A stretch of DNA of 34,379 bases from Lachnospiraceae bacterium (lineage in GTDB: Bacteria > Bacillota > Clostridia > Lachnospirales > Lachnospiraceae). Below, piece by piece: positions 1 to 34,379 of this stretch. The notes beneath the pieces were generated by a model. It was not told the DNA's origin and searched no databases. It was given only the letters and a program-made list of their open reading frames with translations. The stretch spans positions 1-34,379 of the forward strand of contig JAFXCD010000029.1 of NCBI GenBank assembly GCA_017521605.1. Reading direction: 5' to 3'. The position numbers and the translations under genes were made by a program. The first letter of the stretch is position 1, and every line of letters begins with the position of its first letter.

Positions 1-2
1 AT

Positions 3-215
3 TTGCGAATAGCACCGGAAGTGTATATGCGGATAGTGCAAAATAGGAAAGCGTCCGAAAAACATTACAGACGAATTGAAGAGTACACACCTAAAACCGG
101 AATAGTGAGACTTTTACATTTGACAGAGAAGCAATATAATAATATTTATATGGTAGCAGGTGAACCAGATTATCAAGAAAAAGTAGTTGGTACAAACAGT
201 CATATTATGTTATAA
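3..215 (+). CDS. cas2: CRISPR-associated endonuclease Cas2, C-terminal part
   Basis: Partial gene running in from the left edge; 70 codons, stop TAA at 213. Cas2 is the dimer that bridges two Cas1 dimers in the spacer-integration complex. The diagnostic features are the VYMRIV strand, the long helix with ASEKHYRRIEE, the stretch GIVRLLHLTEKQY (the VxxLTVTEKQ motif of type II Cas2) and a short tail ending HIML. The N-terminal 28 residues are at the opposite end of the window (34294-34379). If about 5 nt are missing at the join, the assembled protein would be 101 residues, the normal size. A leader and a CRISPR-like repeat follow directly, as expected for a cas1-cas2-array order. The TTG at 3 is an internal codon and not a start. 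Confidence 0.85.
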   Translation: MRIAPEVYMRIVQNRKASEKHYRRIEEYTPKTGIVRLLHLTEKQYNNIYMVAGEPDYQEKVVGTNSHIML

Positions 216-281
216 TGAGACTTGTAACAGACTAATTATCTATATTGGGGGAGTTAATAAAACTTTTTACTAAATATAGTG
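216..281 (+). promoter_or_regulatory. Putative CRISPR leader
   Basis: A 66-bp AT-rich stretch between the cas2 stop codon and the first repeat. Its place next to cas2 and the first repeat is where a type II leader lies; no internal motif proves it. If correct, the repeat at 282 is the leader-proximal one, so what follows it is the most recently gained part of the array. Confidence 0.5.
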
Positions 282-317
282 GTTGAATGACCCGCCAAAA
301 ATGGTGCATCGTTCAAC
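282..317 (+). CRISPR. CRISPR-like 36-bp repeat, copy 1
   Basis: First of three identical 36-bp copies. The sequence is almost a full palindrome: outer arms GTTGAATGA and TCGTTCAAC pair over 9 bp with one G-U; a 2x2 internal loop follows; then CGCCA pairs with TGGTG around an AAAA loop. Length, terminal GTTG/CAAC and position behind cas2 and a leader fit a CRISPR repeat. No 30-bp spacer follows; the next copy is 1,294 bp away. Confidence 0.75.
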
Positions 318-722
318 AAAGTAGTTTCAATATTGTTAAAAAAATTTCATAATCGTGCCCCATTTTTTATAGCTCATTCATTAGGTATAGAAGTGACATT
401 TTTGGATTTCAATCAACACATCTCTGCTTTTTCAGAAAGAAAAGACCATTTTGACAGAGGGCGTATTTATATTAACCGTAACCTTGGTCATTATATGCAG
501 AAGCTACTCTGTGCCCACGAGCTAGGGCATATGTTACTTCATGATGTGTGTGAAACAACTTTTTTTGATGCTGATATTGAGCCCCAAAAAGAATATGAAG
601 CGAACTATTTTACAGCAATGTTGTTGCCACAACTTATCAACAATGAAGACATTTGGGATTATTCAATGGAAGCTTTCAATGCATATATAGCATCTCGTGT
701 TTATTTTGCTTCGAAAACATAA
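318..722 (+). CDS. ImmA/IrrE-family metallopeptidase, 5'-truncated
   Basis: Zinc metallopeptidase of the ImmA/IrrE type (COG2856, DUF955), usually found in phages, ICEs and toxin-antitoxin loci where it cleaves an XRE-type repressor. Seen: the family's N-terminal stretch with NRAPFFIAHSLGIEV, the zinc-binding AHELGHMLLH (HExxH) near residue 70, and the following EYEANYFTAMLL with the third ligand region. The frame is open straight through the upstream repeat (from 291), so no native start is present. The homology begins within ~10 residues of the repeat edge, meaning that the start codon and first residues are lost at the junction. A TTG at 333 could act as a substitute start. The C-terminus is short and ends without an extra domain. 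The lipoprotein gene follows after 23 bp. The partner XRE repressor is not in the window. Confidence 0.75.
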   Translation, partial: KVVSILLKKFHNRAPFFIAHSLGIEVTFLDFNQHISAFSERKDHFDRGRIYINRNLGHYMQKLLCAHELGHMLLHDVCETTFFDADIEPQKEYEANYFTAMLLPQLINNEDIWDYSMEAFNAYIASRVYFASKT

Positions 723-745
723 AGAAACCGCAAAGGAGAATTGAA

Positions 746-1567
746 ATGAGAAGAAAAGCCACCTTATTAATAGTTTTGCTTTTACTTTTAACCTCATGCA
801 GTTATGATGTTAATACTGAATCCCCCAAAAAAGTTGCTTCCATAACAACAGACCAATCAACACCAGCACCCTCAACTGAAAACACTCAAACCGAAGAACT
901 GATTGTTGTATGCGATAAAGAAATCCTTTTTATGAACATCCCTTGGGGAACTAGTTTTACCAAAGTAGACGAGATGCATGGAGAGTTAGAATTGTGGGGA
1001 TTAAGTGGAGACAGTTACAAAACCTACTCTGTAGATGATATTATATTGGGGGAATATGAAGGGATTGATTTTGAATACGATGACATCAATATAATTGGTA
1101 ATTGCTTTAACAGTGAGGTAGAAGTTGCTGGTTATACAACGCAAAAAGTTGCACTATATTTTGCTTACAATATTGTAGATGGCACATTACCTAAAACAGA
1201 AAATGAAAGTTCTTTATATGGTGGACAATATATATTTGATACAGAGAATTTAGATGGTATGTATTCAGACTTAAAAGATAAACTCACTTCATTATATGGC
1301 GAGCCTAGCAAAACAACACAAAGAACTGACTATCTTGACATTAGTTACACATACACTTGGTGGTATGGTTTGAATAATACTGTTGTTGTATTGAAATCAC
1401 AGGATGCCTCAAATGACACTACCGATTTATTTGACGATGAAATCACAATATCCTATGCGTGGATGAATGGTGATGAATTGTTACAAAACGCAAGCGACTG
1501 CTTAAAACAAAACGCATTAAATGAAGAGGAAAGCAATTATGGTTCCAACAATACATCTGGACTATAA
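746..1567 (+). CDS. Putative secreted lipoprotein of unknown function
   Basis: A 273-residue protein. The start ATG at 746 is preceded by AAGGAG at a good distance. The N-terminus has two basic residues, a run of leucines and isoleucines and a lipobox LLTSC, so it should be exported and lipid-anchored at Cys ~18. A serine/threonine/proline-rich linker follows, up to about residue 50. The remainder is a globular, acidic region with repeated aromatic residues (for example the TYTWWYG stretch) that I do not match to a named family. It lies 23 bp behind the peptidase gene and ends at a perfect 13-bp hairpin, so the two probably form one unit of the mobile element from which this segment comes. 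Confidence 0.7.
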   Translation: MRRKATLLIVLLLLLTSCSYDVNTESPKKVASITTDQSTPAPSTENTQTEELIVVCDKEILFMNIPWGTSFTKVDEMHGELELWGLSGDSYKTYSVDDIILGEYEGIDFEYDDINIIGNCFNSEVEVAGYTTQKVALYFAYNIVDGTLPKTENESSLYGGQYIFDTENLDGMYSDLKDKLTSLYGEPSKTTQRTDYLDISYTYTWWYGLNNTVVVLKSQDASNDTTDLFDDEITISYAWMNGDELLQNASDCLKQNALNEEESNYGSNNTSGL

Positions 1568-1571
1568 AACT

Positions 1572-1610
1572 AGAACTGCCCAGCAACTTTTTTCATAGCT
1601 GGGCAGTTCT
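1572..1610 (+). terminator. Terminator hairpin cut off before its U-run
   Basis: Perfect 13-bp stem AGAACTGCCCAGC / GCTGGGCAGTTCT with a 13-nt loop, 5 bp behind the lipoprotein stop codon. An intrinsic terminator would continue with a T-run, but the base after the stem is the first base of the second 36-bp repeat. The U-run appears to have been lost at the junction. Confidence 0.65.
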
Positions 1611-1646
1611 GTTGAATGACCCGCCAAAAATGGTGCATCGTTCAAC
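1611..1646 (+). CRISPR. CRISPR-like 36-bp repeat, copy 2
   Basis: Identical in all 36 positions to copies 1 and 3. It abuts a terminator stem on the left and the middle of an ATPase gene on the right. The distance to copy 1 is 1,294 bp and to copy 3 is 1,381 bp. Confidence 0.75.
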
Positions 1647-2405
1647 GGTGGTTGGCCGGGGAATCTGGATATCCCTATGGGGCAGGCAGAACTGCTTCCG
1701 GGGGAGTATTTAAATGCTGTGATAGATGATGATGTATTCCGGATAGATGGTGTAAAACGCGATACAAGGAAAATTAGATTGCTGTTAAAGTCTCTTGCAA
1801 GAAATGAGAGTACGACTGCAACGAATAAAAAGCTGAAAAACGATATTAAAGAAATTGATGACGAAGATATCAATATTGATACCGTAGCGGAGTATTTGGA
1901 TATATTTAACCGGCTGTTTCTTACAGAAAATCAGCCACCGTTTGCAACGCGAATACGTTCTTCGGTACGTGTAAAACAGGTGGAAAAACGACATTTTGTT
2001 GATCCGTCGCTCCCCTGTGCCGTTTTGGACGTGAATTCCGAACGATTGATAGGGGATTTAGAAACGGCGGGATTTTTGTTTGAAGCATTATGTGAAAGAG
2101 ATTTGCGGATTTATGCCGAGGCTTGTGATGCTGCACTGTACCACTATCAAGACTACGCGGGTAAGGAAATAGACGCAGTGGTAGAGTTTAAAAACGGTGA
2201 CTGGATTGCCTTTGAAATCAAACTTGGTGCAAATCAGATAGATGCGGCAGCGGAAAATTTGCTTGAGATTCGCGACGCTGTTGCGGAAGAAGCAGGAGGT
2301 ATGTTGCCGAAGGCACTGTGCGTTATCTGCGGAATGTCGAATGCAGTATATCAACGCCCGGACGGTGTTTATGTGGTACCGATTACGGCATTAAAATCGC
2401 AGTAG
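1647..2405 (+). CDS. DUF4143-type ATPase, C-terminal part only
   Basis: C-terminal 252 residues of an AAA-type ATPase with the DUF4143 (restriction-endonuclease-like) domain. The full family has about 400 residues with an N-terminal Walker A/B ATPase domain; here everything before GGWPG is missing. Seen: GGWPG at the junction (the family's RGGWP motif), DDDVFRIDGVKRDTRK, FVDPSLPCAVL, FLFEALCERDLRIY, and a nuclease-like end with EIDAVVEFKNGDWIAFEIKLG (a D-E-K arrangement). The frame continues open into the repeat, and no convincing start codon or ribosome site is present, so the gene is broken at 1646/1647. An ATG at 1677 has no Shine-Dalgarno. Cellular role is not established; these genes are common in accessory regions. 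Confidence 0.75.
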   Translation, partial: GGWPGNLDIPMGQAELLPGEYLNAVIDDDVFRIDGVKRDTRKIRLLLKSLARNESTTATNKKLKNDIKEIDDEDINIDTVAEYLDIFNRLFLTENQPPFATRIRSSVRVKQVEKRHFVDPSLPCAVLDVNSERLIGDLETAGFLFEALCERDLRIYAEACDAALYHYQDYAGKEIDAVVEFKNGDWIAFEIKLGANQIDAAAENLLEIRDAVAEEAGGMLPKALCVICGMSNAVYQRPDGVYVVPITALKSQ

Positions 2406-2427
2406 GGAATAAGCAAGGAGGGGGACT

Positions 2428-3036
2428 GTGAAAAAGTTTATTATTTCAGTGAGTATAGCGTTGCTTGCGGTTGTGGGCGTTGCTGGGTACCTGCGGTGGA
2501 GTGAGGTCCACACGCATTATCAGGCGGAGCCTCCGGTAAGCTATGTGACCGAGGCGGACGGAGTAACGCTTGCAGAGGGAGAAAACTGGATCCCGTGGCG
2601 GGTAGACGTGATTACGTCAAATCAGTATTATCGGAAGGATGGAGAACGGAAGTTAAACGGTACGGAGTTGGAGACATTGTATTACGCATATCAGGAGTCC
2701 TGGGATGCGTTTGTTGAGACGGCTCATGCAAAGGAGTTAAAACGCTATGAACGGCAGCATTCCGTAGGTGGCGGCATATTTCACTCCTTTAACGACATCT
2801 TTTGCGTGGTGGAGCAGAACTATGCCGGGTTGCAGCCGGAGGTAGAGGCTGTGTCGCAGATTGTAAAGGAGAACGGAAAAAGCAAGGTGACGCTTTATAT
2901 TTCCTACACGGGAGAAGGAGTGGAGGATGAGAGGGTGACCTATTATTATTTTGTGAAGCTTCCGGAGGGACTTCCGCGGGTAGAGGAGATTGTCATTTCC
3001 ACGGACCGGTCAGACAGGGAGAATGAAGTTGAATGA
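2428..3036 (+). CDS. Membrane-anchored or secreted protein, 3' end replaced by repeat
   Basis: The 202-residue frame starts at GTG 2428 behind a strong AAGGAGGGGG site, 22 bp after the ATPase. Residues 5-21 form one hydrophobic segment (signal anchor or signal peptide without a lipobox), followed by an extracellular region with no family I recognise. The last codons GTT GAA TGA lie inside the third 36-bp repeat: the stop codon is supplied by the repeat, so the native C-terminus has been cut and the last three codons are foreign. The body is rich in G/C-ending codons compared with the AT-rich ImmA-lipoprotein segment, suggesting that the two segments have different sources. Confidence 0.6.
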   Translation: MKKFIISVSIALLAVVGVAGYLRWSEVHTHYQAEPPVSYVTEADGVTLAEGENWIPWRVDVITSNQYYRKDGERKLNGTELETLYYAYQESWDAFVETAHAKELKRYERQHSVGGGIFHSFNDIFCVVEQNYAGLQPEVEAVSQIVKENGKSKVTLYISYTGEGVEDERVTYYYFVKLPEGLPRVEEIVISTDRSDRENEVE

Positions 3037-3063
3037 CCCGCCAAAAATGGTGCATCGTTCAAC
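3028..3063 (+). CRISPR. CRISPR-like 36-bp repeat, copy 3
   Basis: Third identical copy. Its first nine bases form the last three codons of the gene to its left. No further copy is found to the right in this window, so the remaining side leads into a mobile-element remnant and then into recQ. Confidence 0.75.
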
Positions 3064-3068
3064 CAAAT

Positions 3069-3208
3069 TATACCCTCTACCAGCTAATCAAAGAGCTTTA
3101 CTTCTGTGATGACACGGGCACAGAAACAAAGCTCTTTTTGTCTGCTTCAAAACCGGCGACCAGAATCCTAGTCCCCGACTTTTCGCAGACCCGCAGATAG
3201 AGGGTATA
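3069..3208. repeat. 140-bp element bounded by perfect 11-bp inverted repeats
   Basis: TATACCCTCTA at 3069-3079 and TAGAGGGTATA at 3198-3208 are exact inverted copies. Between them lies the strong hairpin at 3090-3139. The left arm begins 6 bp after the third CRISPR-like repeat. It could be part of an ICE end, a transfer origin or a long-stem RNA; no gene is present. Confidence 0.6.
3090..3139 (+). terminator. Strong two-stage hairpin with U-run
   Basis: Outer stem AAAGAGCTTT / AAAGCTCTTT (10 bp, perfect), a symmetric AC/AC internal loop, inner stem TTCTGTG / CACAGAA (7 bp, perfect) and a 10-nt loop, followed by TTT before G. It fits an intrinsic terminator in plus orientation or a structured RNA. 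No intact gene ends just before it, because the upstream side is the CRISPR-like repeat. Confidence 0.6.
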
Positions 3209-3390
3209 ACACACTAGACTTTGCAAGCAAAATCCGTGTGCCAAAGAGGGGCGTTGCCCCCTTTGGATTCCCCCATCATTTCAGTTTCTCGGATACGAAA
3301 CCGACCTTACCGTTTTTGTATCCTTGCCCCGGAAATCAAAAAAGCACCGTCGCCATCTTCATAGGTGATGTTGACCGTGCTTCTTTATTT
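3209..3390. other. Non-coding mobile-element remnant
   Basis: About 180 bp with no supported gene. It contains a GC-rich hairpin at about 3242-3263 (AAAGAGGGGC / GCCCCCTTT). Such hairpins are common near mobilisation genes of Firmicute conjugative elements; this is recalled resemblance, and no relaxase gene is present here. Confidence 0.35.
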
Positions 3391-3580
3391 TTATCCCAAA
3401 GTTGTTTTCTTGCAATACTGCGTAAGCGTGGGTTGTAGTGTAATATCTTTAACTGTGGGAACCTCCTCTCTCCCACTTTGCTACACTTTGCGCTGTAATT
3501 CCCAAATACTCTGCCACATCCTCCTGTATCAGATTCTTCATTATACGATACTCTTTTAGATTTTCCGATATCTTTAACAT
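3391..3580 (-). pseudogene. Small XRE-family regulator, frameshifted
   Basis: Starts at ATG 3580 behind an excellent site (TAAGGAGGGCAAT). The first frame reads 43 residues with a clear Cro/C1 helix-turn-helix (LIQEDVAEYLGITAQSVAKWERGG) and stops at 3449. The continuation expected for this family (P-T-V-K-D-I-T-L and on to a stop at 3391) is present in another frame, so an insertion or deletion of 1-2 bases near 3460 has split the gene. Regulators of this size are typical ICE or phage control genes. A promoter is visible upstream (3611-3638). A genuine 43-residue product is possible but would lack the usual C-terminal half. Confidence 0.55.
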
Positions 3581-3610
3581 ATTGCCCTCCTTATGATTGT
3601 TTCTAATAAA

Positions 3611-3680: not shown

Positions 3681-5423
3681 TTATAAATGTTGCAAAATAA
3701 CCTCCTCAAAATCTTCCCCATACCTCTGGTATTTATTTTCGCCTACACCGCTTATCTGAAGCATCTCCTGCTTATTCGTAGGACATTTCACACTCATCTC
3801 CAGCAATGTCTTATCAGTAAATATCATATAAGGTGGCAGGGATACGGCTTTTGCAATACGAAGTCGAAGAGCTTTTAACTGCTTAAAGAGCTCCTGCTGC
3901 TTTTCTGTCAGTTGCTCCACACTAAATGTTTCACTGCCGGCACCACGCTTGTTAACGGCACTTTCCCCATATACGCCTGTACCATAAGCACTCTGTTTGC
4001 CGGCACCTTTTCCTCCGCCTATATTGGGACCTATTCCTCTTCCGGCACCCATTTTCTCATACTTGGCACCGAAATAAACAATATCCTTTTTTTCATCATA
4101 CACCACACCTGTATATCCGTTGCTCTCATAGGCATCGTACTCATCCCAGAAATCCTTATAACCATAGGTATCGTACTCCTGACGCTCGGAAGCATTCACA
4201 CAGACGGAACAATTCCCACAATACTTCCCCGAAATATCCTGCCAGCGTGAGGTACCAAAATACCGCAAAATATATTCCCTCAAGCAATAATTGGTCTTAC
4301 AATACCCAGCCATGGCCCACAAACGTTCCCTATCGTTCTTTAACACCAATTCTGCCTGTTCTTCCGTCAGTTCACTATTTTCCCCACGATTTTCAATTAG
4401 ATATTTATTGATATGTACATCCTGTGGGGAATAGAGTATGACACACTCTGCAGACATACCGTCACGGCCGGCGCGCCCTGCTTCCTGATAATAGTTTTCC
4501 AAGCTCTGAGGCATATTGTAATGCACCACATACCGCACATTGGACTTATCAATCCCCATACCAAAAGCGTTGGTAGCTACCACGATAGGCTTTCGATCAT
4601 AAATAAAGTCCTCCTGATTTTCTTTTCGTTCCTGAGGTGACAATCCTGCGTGGTACCGTGTTACAGGCAATCCACGTGATTCCAGAAATTCACAGACCTT
4701 TTCCACATTTTTCCGAGTGGCACAGTAGATGATACCGCTTTCCTCCAAATGGTTCTGTAAGTAGTGTAAAAGCTGGTCATCCTTATTCTTGCCGGTACGT
4801 ACTTCAAAGAATAGATTCTCCCTATCAAAACCGGTAACCAATACCTTTGGATTCTGTAAACACAAAATCTCCAAAATATCTTTCCTTACCACAGTCGTAG
4901 CCGTAGCTGTAAATGCACTGACAATGGGGCGTACAGGCAATCTGTCTATAAATTGTAGTATTTTCAAGTAACTGGGGCGGAAATCCTGTCCCCATTGAGA
5001 AATACAATGGGCCTCATCAATGGTTACCATACTGATATCTGCATTTAGAGCAAAATATAAAAATCTCTCGGTTTCCAGTCGTTCCGGTGCTACATATATA
5101 ATTTTATATTGCCCCATGGTAGCGTTTTGCAATGCCTTGGCAATCTGGTTCTCTGTCAGTGAACTATTGATATAAGCAGCATGTACACCAGCTTGATTCA
5201 GTGCTTTAACCTGATCCATCATCAAGGATATGAGAGGCGAAACCACAATGGTAATACCCCCCATACACAAAGCCGGTACTTGATAACAAATGGATTTACC
5301 TGCTCCTGTGGGCATGATACCCAGCACATCCCAACCTGCCAAAATACTATCTACCAGTTCTTCCTGTCCTTCCTTAAAACTTGTGTATCCAAAATACTGC
5401 TTTAGGACTTGATACTTTTCCAC
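3681..5423 (-). CDS. recQ: ATP-dependent DNA helicase RecQ
   Basis: 3'-5' SF2 DNA helicase acting in recombination and fork repair. In order: Walker A TGAGKS (about residues 39-44), DEAH box in IDEAHCISQWGQDFR (about 136), motif IV-VI region ending in YYQEAGRAGRDG, a zinc-binding set of four cysteines (CKTNYC and CGNCSVC, about 373-403), and an HRDC domain at the C-terminus (about 505-580). Between the zinc cluster and the HRDC is a ~90-residue glycine-rich, low-complexity linker in place of a clear winged-helix domain. Length (580) is normal for Firmicute RecQ. The start is GTG 5423, 6 bp behind AGGAGA. It stands alone: a terminator ends the upstream NlpC/P60 transcript just before it, and mobile-element DNA lies downstream. 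Confidence 0.93.
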   Translation of the reverse strand: MEKYQVLKQYFGYTSFKEGQEELVDSILAGWDVLGIMPTGAGKSICYQVPALCMGGITIVVSPLISLMMDQVKALNQAGVHAAYINSSLTENQIAKALQNATMGQYKIIYVAPERLETERFLYFALNADISMVTIDEAHCISQWGQDFRPSYLKILQFIDRLPVRPIVSAFTATATTVVRKDILEILCLQNPKVLVTGFDRENLFFEVRTGKNKDDQLLHYLQNHLEESGIIYCATRKNVEKVCEFLESRGLPVTRYHAGLSPQERKENQEDFIYDRKPIVVATNAFGMGIDKSNVRYVVHYNMPQSLENYYQEAGRAGRDGMSAECVILYSPQDVHINKYLIENRGENSELTEEQAELVLKNDRERLWAMAGYCKTNYCLREYILRYFGTSRWQDISGKYCGNCSVCVNASERQEYDTYGYKDFWDEYDAYESNGYTGVVYDEKKDIVYFGAKYEKMGAGRGIGPNIGGGKGAGKQSAYGTGVYGESAVNKRGAGSETFSVEQLTEKQQELFKQLKALRLRIAKAVSLPPYMIFTDKTLLEMSVKCPTNKQEMLQISGVGENKYQRYGEDFEEVILQHL

Positions 5424-6972: not shown

Positions 6973-8367
6973 TTACAGTTCACAGTTATTTACAGTACGA
7001 GGGAATGGAAGTACGTCCCTGATGTTGCTCATACCGGTCAAGTACATTACACATCTTTCGAAGCCAAGTCCGAAGCCTGCATGACGAACAGAGCCGTATC
7101 TACGTAAGTCTAAATAGAAATCATAATCTTCCTTGTTGAGACCCAGTTCATCCATTCTCTGCTCCAGAAGTTCCAACTTATCTTCACGCTGGCTACCACC
7201 GATAATTTCACCGATACCGGGTACAAGACAGTCCATAGCAGCTACAGTCTTGCCATCCTCGTTCAGCTTCATGTAGAAGGCCTTGATTTCCTTGGGATAG
7301 TCCGTTACAAATACAGGACGCTTGAATTCCTGCTCCGTCAGGTATCTTTCATGCTCGGTCTGTAAATCACAGCCCCAGAACACCTTGTAATCAAACTTAT
7401 CGTTGTTCTTTTCCAGAATTTCAATAGCTTCTGTATAGGTTACATGCCCAAAGTCAGAGTTTACTACATGATTCAATCTTTCGATTAAGCCCTTATCTAC
7501 AAACTGGTTGAAGAAGTTCATCTCTTCAGGAGCATTCTCCAGTACATAGCGGATTACATATTTCAACATGCTTTCAGCTAAAATCATATCATCCTTCAAA
7601 TCCGCAAAAGCCATCTCCGGCTCAATCATCCAGAACTCAGCCGCATGACGGGTGGTGTTTGAATTCTCCGCTCGGAAGGTAGGTCCAAAGGTATATACGT
7701 TCTTAAATGCAAAAGCATAGGTTTCTACGTTTAACTGTCCGCTTACAGTCAGGTTGGTAGGCTTGTTAAAGAAATCCTGTGAGAAGTCTACCTTACCATC
7801 TTCCGTCTTAGGCAGGTTGTTCAAATCCATGGTAGTTACCTGGAACATTTCACCGGCACCCTCACAGTCACTTCCTGTGATAATAGGTGTGTGTACATAT
7901 ACAAAGCCTCTTTCCATAAAGAAGCTGTGAATCGCATAAGCAATCAAAGAACGTACACGGAACACTGCCTGAAAGGTGTTGGTTCTGGGACGTAAGTGAG
8001 AAATGGTTCTCAAATATTCAAAGCTGTGACGCTTCTTCTGCAAAGGATAATCTGCTGAGGAAGGACCTTCTACAATTACCTCCAGAGCCTGCATTTCAAA
8101 GGGCTGCTTTGCCTGAGGAGTTTCCACAATAGTTCCTCTGATTACCAAGGCTGCGCCTACATTGATTTTGCAAAGCTCTGCAAAGTTCTCCAGCTGGTCT
8201 CCATATACTACCTGCAATGCTTCAAAGAAAGTACCGTCATTAATTACCAGGAAGCCGAAATTCTTACTGTCACGGTTACTTCTTACCCAACCGCCTACGG
8301 TCACTTCCTTTCCGATATATGCTTCGCGGTTGCGAAATAAATCCTTAATGTCTGTTAAGTTCATCAT
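6973..8367 (-). CDS. asnS: Asparagine--tRNA ligase
   Basis: Class IIb aminoacyl-tRNA synthetase charging tRNA-Asn with asparagine in the cytoplasm. N-terminal OB-fold anticodon-binding domain (about residues 12-100, [19 protein letters not shown]), then the catalytic core: motif 2 with [22 protein letters not shown] and motif 3 [15 protein letters not shown] near the end. 464 residues, the family's usual size. ATG 8367 is chosen because GGAGG ends 8 bp upstream. A GTG five codons further upstream would use the ribosome site itself as coding sequence. The gene starts 21 bp after the foldase lipoprotein, so both share a transcript ending at the hairpin at 6921. Confidence 0.96.
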
Positions 8368-32373: not shown

Positions 32374-33186
32374 TTACTCTTCAATTGTAATCCACATAGG
32401 TTTTCTTTTGCTAAATACAGCAATCTTTTTAAAGCCACAATCCCTTATCATCTGCAAGGTTTCCGAAACATTTTCTCCTACTCTATCCGTTCTGTGTGCA
32501 TCCGAACCGATGGTTATGATTCTTCCACCAAGCTCATAATATCTTTTAATAATACTGGGATGGGGCAAGGTATGACCCGCCCGATTAATACCTGAAGTAT
32601 TTACTTCTATTCCCTTGCCCTGCTTAATGATTTGTAACAAAATATCATCTAACAGCTCGGGAAACATTTCATAATCAAGCGTATTGTCCTCATAATAGTT
32701 GCATTTGGCAATATATCCGATGTGACCCACACAATCGTAGGCATCCTGCAAATTGGTGTCCGTTACGGATTCATATACGGTTTCCAAATATCTTTTATAA
32801 GCAGTCTCCTTATCTCTTCCTCTTTTAGCTTCGGGCATGTAGCAATCGATACCATCCACACAATGGGTGCTTAATAATACATAATCCAACTCCCAGTCTG
32901 CCAGTACCTTTGCCGTCTGCTCCGCGGTTTCCTTAATATATCCAACCTCCACACCATGATATATGTTTATACCTGAACGCATACTTTTTACTTGCTCTAT
33001 AGCTTCTTTCATTCTATAAAAATCTGGCACTCTGTTGAAAAGTTCCATATTATGTCCCAAGTCCATGTGTTCTGTGAAGCATAAATCCGTAATACCAACT
33101 TTTATAGCGACTTCCACTGCTACTGCCACTTCCATATGCCCATCGGGTGAAAAATAAGTGTGTACATGAAAATCAGGTTTCCGCAT
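32374..33186 (-). CDS. PHP-domain phosphatase, histidinol-phosphatase (HisJ) family
   Basis: 270 residues. PHP-fold metal enzyme with all expected ligands: HVHTYFSPDGH near residue 8, TEHMD (about 40), YHGVEVGY (about 78), STHCVDG (about 108), GHIGYI (about 155) and GSDAHR (about 222). HisJ removes phosphate from histidinol phosphate; with no other his gene in view the substrate is open. ATG 33186 behind AAAGGAG, overlapping the methyltransferase gene by 14 bp, so the two were co-transcribed. Confidence 0.85.
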   Translation of the reverse strand: MRKPDFHVHTYFSPDGHMEVAVAVEVAIKVGITDLCFTEHMDLGHNMELFNRVPDFYRMKEAIEQVKSMRSGINIYHGVEVGYIKETAEQTAKVLADWELDYVLLSTHCVDGIDCYMPEAKRGRDKETAYKRYLETVYESVTDTNLQDAYDCVGHIGYIAKCNYYEDNTLDYEMFPELLDDILLQIIKQGKGIEVNTSGINRAGHTLPHPSIIKRYYELGGRIITIGSDAHRTDRVGENVSETLQMIRDCGFKKIAVFSKRKPMWITIEE

Positions 33187-33904
33187 CTGCTTCTCCTTTC
33201 TCTGCTATCATTATGTCCATGCAGTGTCTATGGGGGATTCCGCCACTATTACAATTAAAAATAGTCTCCTCATTTTTATGGAATAACCAGTCATTATAAT
33301 AATATAATAACTCTCCGGAATACCAGGGTTCTGTTTGTCTTTCAATCTCTTCACTATCCGGTGGAATTTCAATAAATGGCTTTTGTACGAACACATTCAT
33401 GGCATGGATTCCGCCTTCGGTAGTATGCTCCTTTAATTCCTTAAATAGTGTTGCCCTAATATCCTTTCGAATGTAATGACATACCCCACTACAAAACACG
33501 ATATCGTACATTTCTACCGGCTTAAATTCATTGATATCTGCTCTGATAAAATCCACTTCCACACCGTTTACATAAGCTAACTCTCTGGCCTTTTTCAGTC
33601 CGCTTTCCGCCACATCAAAAGCGGTCACCTGATATCCGTTCCTAGCCAGAAATACTGCATCCTTCCCTTCTCCACAACCCATATCAAGAACCCTATAGGG
33701 CTTTATCGGTGGACGTAATTTCATAATCTCACAACATAGTCTGTTTGGTGCAATTCCCCAATAATAGTTCTCATCCTTATACCGCTCCTCATAATCTGTT
33801 TTAGCAGTATAGGAATAACCGACTATGGCATCCACAGATGTATGAAGTATGCGCGCCAACTCCGGAAGAAGTGATATATCAGGCGTTGAAGCCCCGGATT
33901 CCCA
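33173..33904 (-). pseudogene. XRE-HTH plus SAM-methyltransferase fusion, 5'-truncated
   Basis: The readable part has the second half of a Cro/C1 HTH (WESGASTPDISLLPELARIL and then HTSVDAIVGY), a linker, and a class I methyltransferase (about 180 residues) with the SAM motif VLDMGCGEGKDAVFLA and the acidic end of strand 2 in VTAFDVAESG. Families with this HTH-methyltransferase arrangement exist in Clostridia. Everything before the W-E-S triplet of the HTH is missing: at 33905 the expected VSK codons are replaced by unrelated bases with an in-frame TAA two codons upstream. A start at TTG 33859 would leave a methyltransferase without a working HTH. Whether the break is biological or from assembly is open; the junction lies 0.1 kb from the cas1 fragment. 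Confidence 0.75.
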
Positions 33905-33986
33905 TAGTTAAGGTTACTGTTTCCCCTGCGTACTGCATCCCGACACGCAGGGAGTTTCATTTATTCAATTTTTCCGATAAAGCGGT
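33905..33986. other. 82-bp joining segment of unknown origin
   Basis: Between the break in the HTH-methyltransferase gene and the start of cas1 homology. It contains a hairpin CCCTGCGT / ACGCAGGG (33924-33952). The cas1 frame is open across it from 33908 but the encoded residues do not resemble Cas1. Nothing else recognised. Confidence 0.5.
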
Positions 33987-33988
33987 GG

Positions 33989-34297
33989 TTACATCATGAC
34001 AATCAATTGAATGCATTTAATCTGGCCGATGATTTGATAGAACCGTATCGTGCAATAGTTGATTTCGTAGCACATAACAATATAGCGTCAAATATTCAGT
34101 TGACAAAATCAGAAAGAAGAGAATTAGCATATGTATTACATAATGCCTGTATCGTCGATGGAGTCAAGGTTAATATAATGTCGGCGATTGATATTATGGT
34201 AGAAAGTTTAAAGAGGATTATTTTAGATGCTTCGACAGAAAAACTGAAGTTACCAATGATTCTGCCGATTGAAAGTATGGAGGGAATTACGGAATGA
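33989..34297 (+). CDS. cas1: CRISPR-associated endonuclease Cas1, C-terminal part
   Basis: 102 residues of the Cas1 integrase C-terminus. Seen: HHDNQLNAFNLADDLIEPYR, which contains the conserved metal-binding His and Asp of the Cas1 active site, ERRELAYVLHNACIVDGVKV, a helix ending in ESLKRII, and a tail LKLPMILPIE typical of type II-C-like Cas1. The remaining ~190 N-terminal residues, including the first metal ligand (Glu), are absent; homology starts at L-H-H (33989), preceded by Trp where family members have Gly, so the junction is at about 33987. The stop TGA overlaps the cas2 start (ATGA), as usual. No cas9, csn2 or tracrRNA is in the window. Confidence 0.85.
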   Translation, partial: LHHDNQLNAFNLADDLIEPYRAIVDFVAHNNIASNIQLTKSERRELAYVLHNACIVDGVKVNIMSAIDIMVESLKRIILDASTEKLKLPMILPIESMEGITE

Positions 34298-34379
34298 GAT
34301 TACTTGTTATTCTTAGTCCAACAGATAGATGGGGAACTAAAACAGAGTATACGAGGCTTCGAAAGTTTTTACATAAAGA
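34294..34379 (+). CDS. cas2: CRISPR-associated endonuclease Cas2, N-terminal part
   Basis: First 28 codons of cas2, running off the right edge. ATG 34294 overlaps the cas1 stop. The start has the first beta strand (MRLLVIL), and the helix containing TEYTRLRKFLHK matches the conserved KFRKFLIK stretch of type II Cas2. Where the family has F-D-L-P-T with the metal-binding Asp, this protein reads L-S-P-T, so the acidic residue appears to be missing. The continuation expected from the family (Asn/Asp-Gly-Phe/Tyr, then a strand with E-x-V-Y) is found at the left end of the window. Confidence 0.8.
   Translation, partial: MRLLVILSPTDRWGTKTEYTRLRKFLHK

Follow-up and report, generated by a model that had tools for sequence, protein, structure and literature searches.

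Gene-sized DNA between CRISPR-type repeats on an integrative mobilizable element: probable capture by an effector-less Cas1-Cas2

Type II CRISPR-Cas systems (CRISPR, clustered regularly interspaced short palindromic repeats) extend an array of 36-bp direct repeats at the leader end by means of Cas1 and Cas2 with inserts of about 30 bp, integrons hold an array of gene cassettes bearing attC sites, which involves the integrase IntI, the attI site and the promoter Pc, and casposons, elements with terminal inverted repeats, encode and are mobilised by a solo Cas1, the casposase. The DNA considered here is a stretch of 34,379 bp from a Lachnospiraceae bacterium, hereafter called the window, which is the entire contig C20 (JAFXCD010000029.1) of a 3.8-Mb genome in 125 contigs (92.87% complete, 5.99% contaminated). 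At its start the window carries the right-hand end of one integrative mobilizable element (IME) copy bearing an effector-less CRISPR adaptation module, that is, an XRE regulator, a type II Cas1, Cas2, a leader and a 36-bp repeat, R36 (GTTGAATGACCCGCCAAAAATGGTGCATCGTTCAAC). It represents one array of gene-sized inserts of this element family, and its cas1 is broken. The phenomenon is real, recurrent and, as far as searched, undescribed, as open-access full-text literature, a scope outside which lie preprints and most subscription journals, yielded no description of a repeat-bounded gene array with an effector-less Cas1-Cas2. Capture by Cas1-Cas2, with gene-sized DNA being inserted at the leader end of an integron-like platform carried by an IME, is the best explanation and one that we hold with considerable confidence.

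The likeness of the element to a type II adaptation module encompasses the Cas1 and Cas2 families, the catalytic residues, the leader, the 36-bp direct repeats and growth at the leader end; the element differs, however, in lacking Cas9, of its own or above cut-off in 21 hosts, in having inserts of 68-3267 bp instead of about 30 bp, and in being IME-borne, and it is, as far as tested, not a working CRISPR-Cas9 system. Like integrons, it gathers captured genes, for the most part facing the same way, in an array that has a promoter-like site where inserts enter, and resistance genes are among its cargo, but it has no tyrosine integrase, the sources of its inserts carry no recombination site of the attC kind, the repeat is duplicated from the array and is not cassette-borne, and inserts often cut genes; the element is not an integron. 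As in casposons, a Cas1-family enzyme would integrate DNA of kilobase size with duplication of the target, but mobility of the element, the left end of which adjoins the serine recombinase gene, does not seem to depend on its Cas1, and Cas2, a leader and repeats are present. Cas1-Cas2 adjoin the array within the element, and the element ends (the left one next to the serine recombinase gene) lie in varied flanks; these ends do not look Cas1-made, and the element is, judging from its sequence, probably not a casposon. In gut Bacillota, the serine-recombinase IMEs exemplified by IME_Rho_tet (PMC12904643) likewise combine a serine recombinase with a relaxase, gut hosts and resistance cargo, and cas1, cas2 and CRISPR do not occur in the main text of that paper; the present element differs in gathering its cargo in a Cas1-Cas2 array. 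A resistance gene between CRISPR repeats is also known from Campylobacter coli, where, according to the consulted parts of two reports (PMC7643735, PMC11823653), erm, later erm(N), lies in a CRISPR-Cas9 array, although that case involves a single gene, and the array is an ordinary one that has short spacers and Cas9. The terms 'orphan' and 'solo' are absent from the part of the review PMC11656645 that was consulted.

Anatomy and distribution of the element

An earlier sequence-only reading of the window had noted three identical 36-bp repeats following cas2 and a leader. Exact copies of R36 were confirmed on the plus strand at 282..317 (leader-proximal), 1611..1646 and 3028..3063 (leader-distal), and in the window genome as a whole R36 has five matches at no more than 3 mismatches as compared to none for a reversed-pattern control. 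Of the intervals then given, that of 1,381 bp stands, while that of 1,294 bp measures 1293 bp. The contig begins within cas2, the 3' part of which (residues 32-101; 3..215, plus strand; 87% identity to L047 Cas2) is followed by a 66-bp leader (216..281, plus strand; end ...ACTAAATATAGTG). Insert 1 (1293 bp; 318..1610, plus strand), between R36 copies 1 and 2, carries a 5'-truncated gene for an IrrE/ImmA-type peptidase (333-722, plus strand; PF06114) and a gene that by eye is lipoprotein-like (about 746-1567, plus strand; without Pfam match). Insert 2 (1381 bp; 1647..3027, plus strand), between copies 2 and 3, carries a DUF4143 gene truncated on its 5' side, with the protein's C-terminal part remaining (1650-2405, plus strand; PF13635), and a function-unassigned gene without Pfam match which reaches into R36 copy 3 (2428-3036, plus strand). 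A conserved trailer of about 0.4 kb (3064..3470, plus strand) extends to the right end of the element (...TATCTTTAACT).

In copies with a full-length Cas1 the order is serine recombinase (minus strand), MobV relaxase (minus strand), XRE regulator (plus strand), Cas1, Cas2, leader, R36, any number of insert-R36 units and the trailer, as far as each contig reaches, and besides the five main genes the only other sizeable backbone frame noted was one 73-aa open reading frame. Nine loci encode a full-length Cas1 (L027, L091, L100, L101, L104, L108, L110, L112 and L115) and all nine retain leader and R36; in L091 the relaxase gene is split, and in L027 it runs off the contig. The 301-aa Cas1 was assigned to type II by NCBIfam (TIGR03639, 241.8 bits, cut-off 120), its closest solved structure is 5xvn, and E147, H202 and E217 are present in 34/34 aligned Cas1 sequences. 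The 101-aa Cas2 matches TIGR01573 (48.6 bits, cut-off 24.5) and the relaxase NF041497 (MobV; 174.9 bits, cut-off 100), while the serine recombinase is Ccr-like, below equivalog cut-offs. In the good copies cas1 and cas2 are, from sequence comparison, kept intact by purifying selection, with ratios of non-synonymous to synonymous substitution rates (dN/dS) in three pairs of 0.04-0.13 for cas1 and 0.25-0.29 for cas2. The element ends are conserved, the left being CCCATAGTTAAGG... (with a variant in L110 and L115) and the right ...TATCTTTAACTAAGGG with small variants, and they sit in varied flanks which were read by eye as host XRE-type genes. The element thus has a recombinase, a relaxase and defined ends in a host gene, as IMEs do, without conjugation machinery of its own. 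Neither a Cas9-sized gene in the backbone nor an IntI-type tyrosine integrase among the backbone genes was found, and Cas9 (TIGR01865) was above cut-off in none of the 21 host genomes, nor in 14 control genomes, so that this search had no positive control.

In a tree of 34 Cas1 sequences, from which the window fragment was omitted as too short, the element Cas1 groups with that of a relic, L257, and the sister group is a clade of seven at 32-36% identity. The relic (G859:C13, 2100-2700) is a decayed second lineage with a Cas1 63% identical over the matched part and cas2-like sequence; its repeat is unlike R36 at 12 positions and holds a perfect 26-nt palindrome. A scan for 18-mers repeated at least three times at 50-85 bp spacing was positive for 20 of 30 Cas1 loci of the order and for 5 of the 7 in the sister clade, as compared to none of 14 R36 loci; the 30 contrast loci come from a search for Cas1 in 392 genomes of the order, and the window fragment and L257 are among them.

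Exact R36 was located in 28 stretches from 23 genomes, the latter counted from record titles, within genome_contigs (84,980 species). Most of these are metagenome bins of Lachnospiraceae, with names that in many cases refer to animal gut samples, but two are isolates, Flavonifractor sp. AGMB03687, which has an empty leader-R36-trailer arrangement (L034/L112), and Fusibacillus kribbianus YH-rum2234, with leader-R36-insert-R36 (L049/L104). Within the window's genus R36 is present at no more than 3 mismatches in 5 of 101 genomes, the window's own counted, and exact copies also occur in two IMG/VR records. A leader-R36 query of 72,556 plasmid records in megablast mode returned one match, C. coli p13786, a complete circular plasmid with two exact R36 copies. 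Two plasmids of Lachnospira eligens carry cas2, the leader and a variant repeat; in these (L145/L146; 10397 and 11109) cas2, leader and an R36 variant with 3 mismatches are followed about 0.68 kb further by a frame-shifted second variant copy, and no cas1 is annotated alongside. The element backbone had no match in phage records, Cas1 relatives were not confirmed in any viral contig, and the L104 array had no match in E. coli genomes. R36 without leader or cas genes in the fetched stretch was seen at L093, L094, L096, L098, L106, L111, L113, L030, L059 and L060, some of these near contig ends; at L111 the insert that follows R36, common with L096 (96% over 789 positions), meets the trailer directly without a terminal R36.

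The explanation ranked first by the sequence-only reading was an assembly path that departs from an ordinary CRISPR array via spacers also present in mobile DNA, and the origin of the window from a 125-contig assembly, with both contig ends inside cas2, would accord with this. The structure is nevertheless not an artefact because the same anatomy recurs across independent genomes: it is present in independent assemblies, in an isolate and in a complete circular plasmid, and the leader and trailer joins are exact and conserved in many assemblies. R36 pairs at spacer spacing account for 0 of 28 inserts below 5 kb, no 66-bp R36 spacing was encountered among the pairs examined, and no ordinary array built on R36 was detected at spacer spacing (no more than 3 mismatches) in 101 genomes of the genus or in the 22 genomes or records of hosts. 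Assembly artefacts as a class were rejected, and we accord this account next to no probability.

Native counterparts and the order of capture

Nine arrays are complete from leader to trailer and hold 0-3 inserts each: three in L101, two in the window, L091 and L104, one in L097, L103, L108 and L027, and none in L112, with 19 nt and 17 nt of trailer remaining before the contig end in L108 and L027, respectively. Adjacent R36 pairs with no more than 4 mismatches at 37 loci amount to 29, and the removal of a 7.7-kb pair at L093, which is without leader or cas genes, leaves 28 inserts of 68-3267 bp (median 1337), none of which is within 20-50 bp.

Several of these inserts could be compared with native sequence. 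A 505-bp insert of F. kribbianus consists of an internal stretch of the gene for a phage capsid protein (major head protein, phrog_10; PF05065 at 30.7 bits against a cut-off of 24.2); it aligns without gaps over 505/505 positions at 96.8% with the IMG/VR contig L152, where the native sequence runs on at both sides and the best match to R36 has 17 mismatches. Similarly, the 1041-bp insert of L101 corresponds over 1041/1041 positions (97.1%) to a locus of another genome, G494, again with a best R36 match of 17 mismatches. The 612-bp insert of the same array encodes a bactofilin (PF04519) and has the 5' portion of an AA-kinase gene (PF00696; read as pyrH) that is cut by R36, and the insert's counterpart in relatives, at about 77%, is unbroken. 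On p13786 the sequence that begins immediately after the second R36 agrees at 990/990 nt with the pSERP segment that holds aph(3')-IIIa, and pSERP upstream of this point, at the end of sat4, is without R36. Native counterparts free of R36 are thus available for three inserts and one edge of a fourth; in addition, insert 2 of the window begins inside its DUF4143 gene, of which the homologue on contig MT839327.1, at 67% DNA identity, extends about 197 residues further upstream, past the junction. Since the native counterparts are without R36, the repeat was not carried in by the insert but copied upon insertion, and duplication of R36 around R36-free DNA is, at the sequence level, the mark of CRISPR-type integration. 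Two further phage-like inserts have viral relatives too distant for clean edges at both ends, no near-identical source of the window's lipoprotein-like gene was present in viral contigs, and no second high-identity insert copy was detected within the same genome for G000, G111, G114 or G088.

These counterparts also bear on two recombination models. In the first, a recombinase acting at R36 would move circular cassettes that bear their own R36, as in integron cassette exchange; R36 is an imperfect 36-nt hairpin (z -3.1) and the arrays resemble cassette arrays, but the native counterparts lack R36, no tyrosine integrase is found among the backbone genes, and serine recombinases do not make 36-bp duplications. 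Moreover, an all-against-all comparison revealed no insert that occurs in two arrays beside different known leader-distal neighbours. The one match whose offsets differ, between L059 and L095, consists of 123 identical nt after the last R36 at different distances from it, and this common stretch looks by eye like part of a transposase gene, probably of an insertion sequence. Cassette exchange is thus regarded as very improbable. In the second model, also offered by the sequence-only reading, ordinary CRISPR repeats or spacers would recombine homologously with mobile DNA. A precedent is the gene-sized erm insert published as lying between repeats of a normal Cas9 array in C. coli (PMC7643735, PMC11823653), for which the former report, in the part consulted, proposes repeat-repeat recombination. 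The native counterparts here offer no R36 with which to recombine, no short spacers were seen in R36 arrays, and such recombination would not be expected to yield exact R36 duplicates flanking source DNA that lacks R36; we give it hardly any credence. Repeat-bounded gene capture, listed last by the sequence-only reading, has proved the best fit.

Growth of the arrays from the leader end was observed in two array pairs. The single insert of L103 recurs in L107 (99.8% over 1059 nt), which has an additional 293-bp insert on the leader side, while L115 and p13786 (L144) share the leader-distal aph(3')-IIIa junction for 41/41 nt, up to the L115 contig end, and differ in their leader-side inserts. 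Near-identical backbones were found among L100, L101 and L104 (99.90-99.98% over 5.2 kb) and between L110 and L115 (99.92%), and within neither group is an insert held in common, the arrays of L100 and L110 being seen in part owing to contig ends; arrays therefore change faster than the element. The inserts have A as the third base inward from R36 at 18 of 28 left ends and 17 of 28 right ends (pooled 35/56, p=7e-7, or 3.4e-5 when corrected for 48 tests; 0 of 2000 random within-insert draws were as extreme), a symmetric preference suggesting that one kind of subunit would grip both ends of a single DNA. The anatomy, the R36-free native counterparts, the polarity in two cases, the fast turnover, this symmetry of the ends and the orientation bias described below are shown by the sequences themselves.

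According to the mechanism that we propose, the Cas1-Cas2 enzyme of an intact copy would capture fragments of about 0.07-3.3 kb, probably double-stranded, and these would enter at the leader-R36 junction. R36 would be nicked at its two ends on opposite strands and duplicated by fill-in, as occurs during spacer integration, minus the ruler of about 30 bp, which would have been lost, and the newer an insert, the closer it would be to the leader. A promoter-like site at the cas2 end directed towards the array could permit expression of insert genes facing away from the leader, from which the host may benefit. The serine recombinase would put the element into host genes, read as XRE-type, while its transfer would be made possible by the MobV relaxase, whereby captured genes would spread in the manner of integron gene cassettes.

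Cargo, orientation and the case for a dedicated platform

The cargo includes resistance genes, which in the F. kribbianus and C. coli arrays are directed against aminoglycosides, as well as phage and chromosomal pieces. The Fusibacillus array holds aph(2'')-IIa-like and aac(6')-Im-like genes (named from plasmid annotation; Pfam APH and GNAT acetyltransferase) on a segment of 1488 bp that is present at about 96.5% in five plasmid records of Klebsiella, Citrobacter and Enterococcus, and the two of these plasmid stretches that were checked are without R36 (best 16-17 mismatches). Plasmid p13786 carries a GNAT gene and aph(2'')-Ii between its two R36 copies, followed by aph(3')-IIIa, and its cas1 is annotated at 516 bp and hence truncated. 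Its authors judged cas1 and cas2 beside tet(O) to be unusual on a plasmid and, in the portions of their paper that were consulted (PMC10800408), describe aph(3')-IIIa (table) and aph(2'')-Ii (text) as partial and make no mention of a repeat-bounded insert; in the plasmid table prediction both genes are at 100% identity. L115 holds a pyridoxamine-oxidase-like gene (PF12900; nim-like by eye) and a chloramphenicol acetyltransferase fragment, covering PF00302 profile positions 46-205 and cut at R36.

Of the 27 inserts with a frame of at least 60 aa, which the 68-bp insert lacks, 23 have the longest one directed away from the leader (p=1.6e-4); with a minimum of 150 aa this holds for 17 of 19 (p=3.6e-4). 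A sequence of the form TTGGxA/TTGACA-N18-TATAAT, with at least 10 of 12 matches, is located at the cas2 end in 16 of 19 loci; in the window this candidate array promoter, TTGGTA-N18-TATAAT, lies at the end of cas2 and is directed towards the array (187..216, plus strand; a consensus match only). Selection for insert genes that are expressed may have contributed to this arrangement.

A number of observations weigh against gene capture by a functional, effector-less module. Well-studied type II Cas1-Cas2 complexes measure about 30 bp, a ruler that the element's pair would have to escape. The cas1 gene of the window is truncated, so the present copy cannot acquire inserts unless another copy helps, cas1 is likewise broken in L029, L109 and L144, and L101 has three inserts yet a broken cas2. 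Weak, partial Cas9 matches below cut-off occur in 4 of the 21 hosts, in a search without positive control. A near-identical native source of the window inserts was not found among 138 genus and 397 family genomes, the best being 67-70%. Polarity is based on two pairs, one of which amounts to just 41 nt at a contig end; promoter-like sites in window positions 1-3600 are no commoner than in shuffles (10 vs 9.0), and conservation of the promoter is not independent evidence because the backbones are nearly identical. Finally, most assemblies carrying R36 are metagenome bins, and the model does not account for several R36 copies that have neither leader nor cas genes in the sequence that was read.

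The breakage of cas1 in the window, L029, L109 and L144, together with the many inserts that hold truncated genes (AA-kinase/pyrH, capsid, chloramphenicol acetyltransferase, DUF4143), would also fit a decayed Cas9-less adaptation module which, through the same chemistry but with no control of length, left long fragments as neutral debris. The purifying selection on cas1 and cas2, the retention of leader and R36 in all nine loci with full-length Cas1, the orientation of genes away from the leader in 23 of 27 inserts and the complete resistance genes among the inserts argue otherwise, and we consider neutral debris unlikely. That the array is instead a dedicated and useful capture platform is likely but unproven. 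We lean, with some reserve, towards the view that this element family has turned a CRISPR integrase into a general DNA-capture machine, in which an effector-less Cas1-Cas2 would sample kilobase fragments of phages, chromosomes and resistance plasmids, stack them behind a promoter and ship them between gut bacteria, as an integron equivalent of anaerobic Bacillota that would also feed resistance genes to other phyla.

If this is true, an effector-less CRISPR integrase would be a gene-capture engine linking CRISPR adaptation, casposons and integrons, the Cas1-Cas2 ruler would be a property that can be lost, and gut anaerobes would gain a route by which to collect and pass on genes, resistance genes included. 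Near-identical elements with different arrays would constitute a natural record of captures, and the full-length-Cas1 copies in two isolates make the mechanism directly testable.

Element remnants and neighbouring genes in the window

To the right of the trailer the element interrupts a host XRE-type helix-turn-helix (HTH) gene, the HTH being assigned by reading, the N-terminal part of which occupies approximately 3471..3580 on the minus strand. At the other side of the contig the left element end (CCCATAGTTAAGG...), together with the 3' terminus of the gene for the serine recombinase (approximately 33900..33990, plus strand), is followed by an internal deletion, where the sequence jumps into cas1 near residue 197-200. 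What remains of cas1 is its 3' part, type II, about residues 197-301 (33980..34297, plus strand), followed by the 5' part of cas2 (residues 1-28; 34296..34379, plus strand) up to the contig end. This left end is adjoined by a methyltransferase gene (33173..33859, minus strand) in which methyltransferase domains were found; judged by reading, its N-terminal HTH part seems to be missing, and it is probably a second interrupted host gene. Both ends of the contig (33860-34379 and 1-215) are thus inside cas2, with about 5 nt absent between them. The contig probably represents one or two element copies at which assembly broke within the repeated cas2 of a multicopy element, and a true circle is unlikely; genes of chromosomal look, read by eye as those for asparaginyl-tRNA synthetase, murI, pyrC and pyrD, are present on it. 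Rfam gave a single match in window positions 1-3600, mir-73, which at 18.9 bits (E 0.63) falls below the gathering score of 86 and was taken as chance.

Elsewhere in the window genome, further decayed cas1 pieces are present on contigs C25 and C39. On contig C36 (L013, G000:C36), positions 7082-7217 hold a relic of the cas2 end, leader and repeat (74%) beside chromosomal-looking genes. On the minus strand of contig C38 (L014, G000:C38), R36 variants with 3-4 mismatches at 4030 and 5596 bound a 1530-bp segment with a 467-aa frame that is by eye aminotransferase/decarboxylase-like, in a stretch without leader or cas genes.

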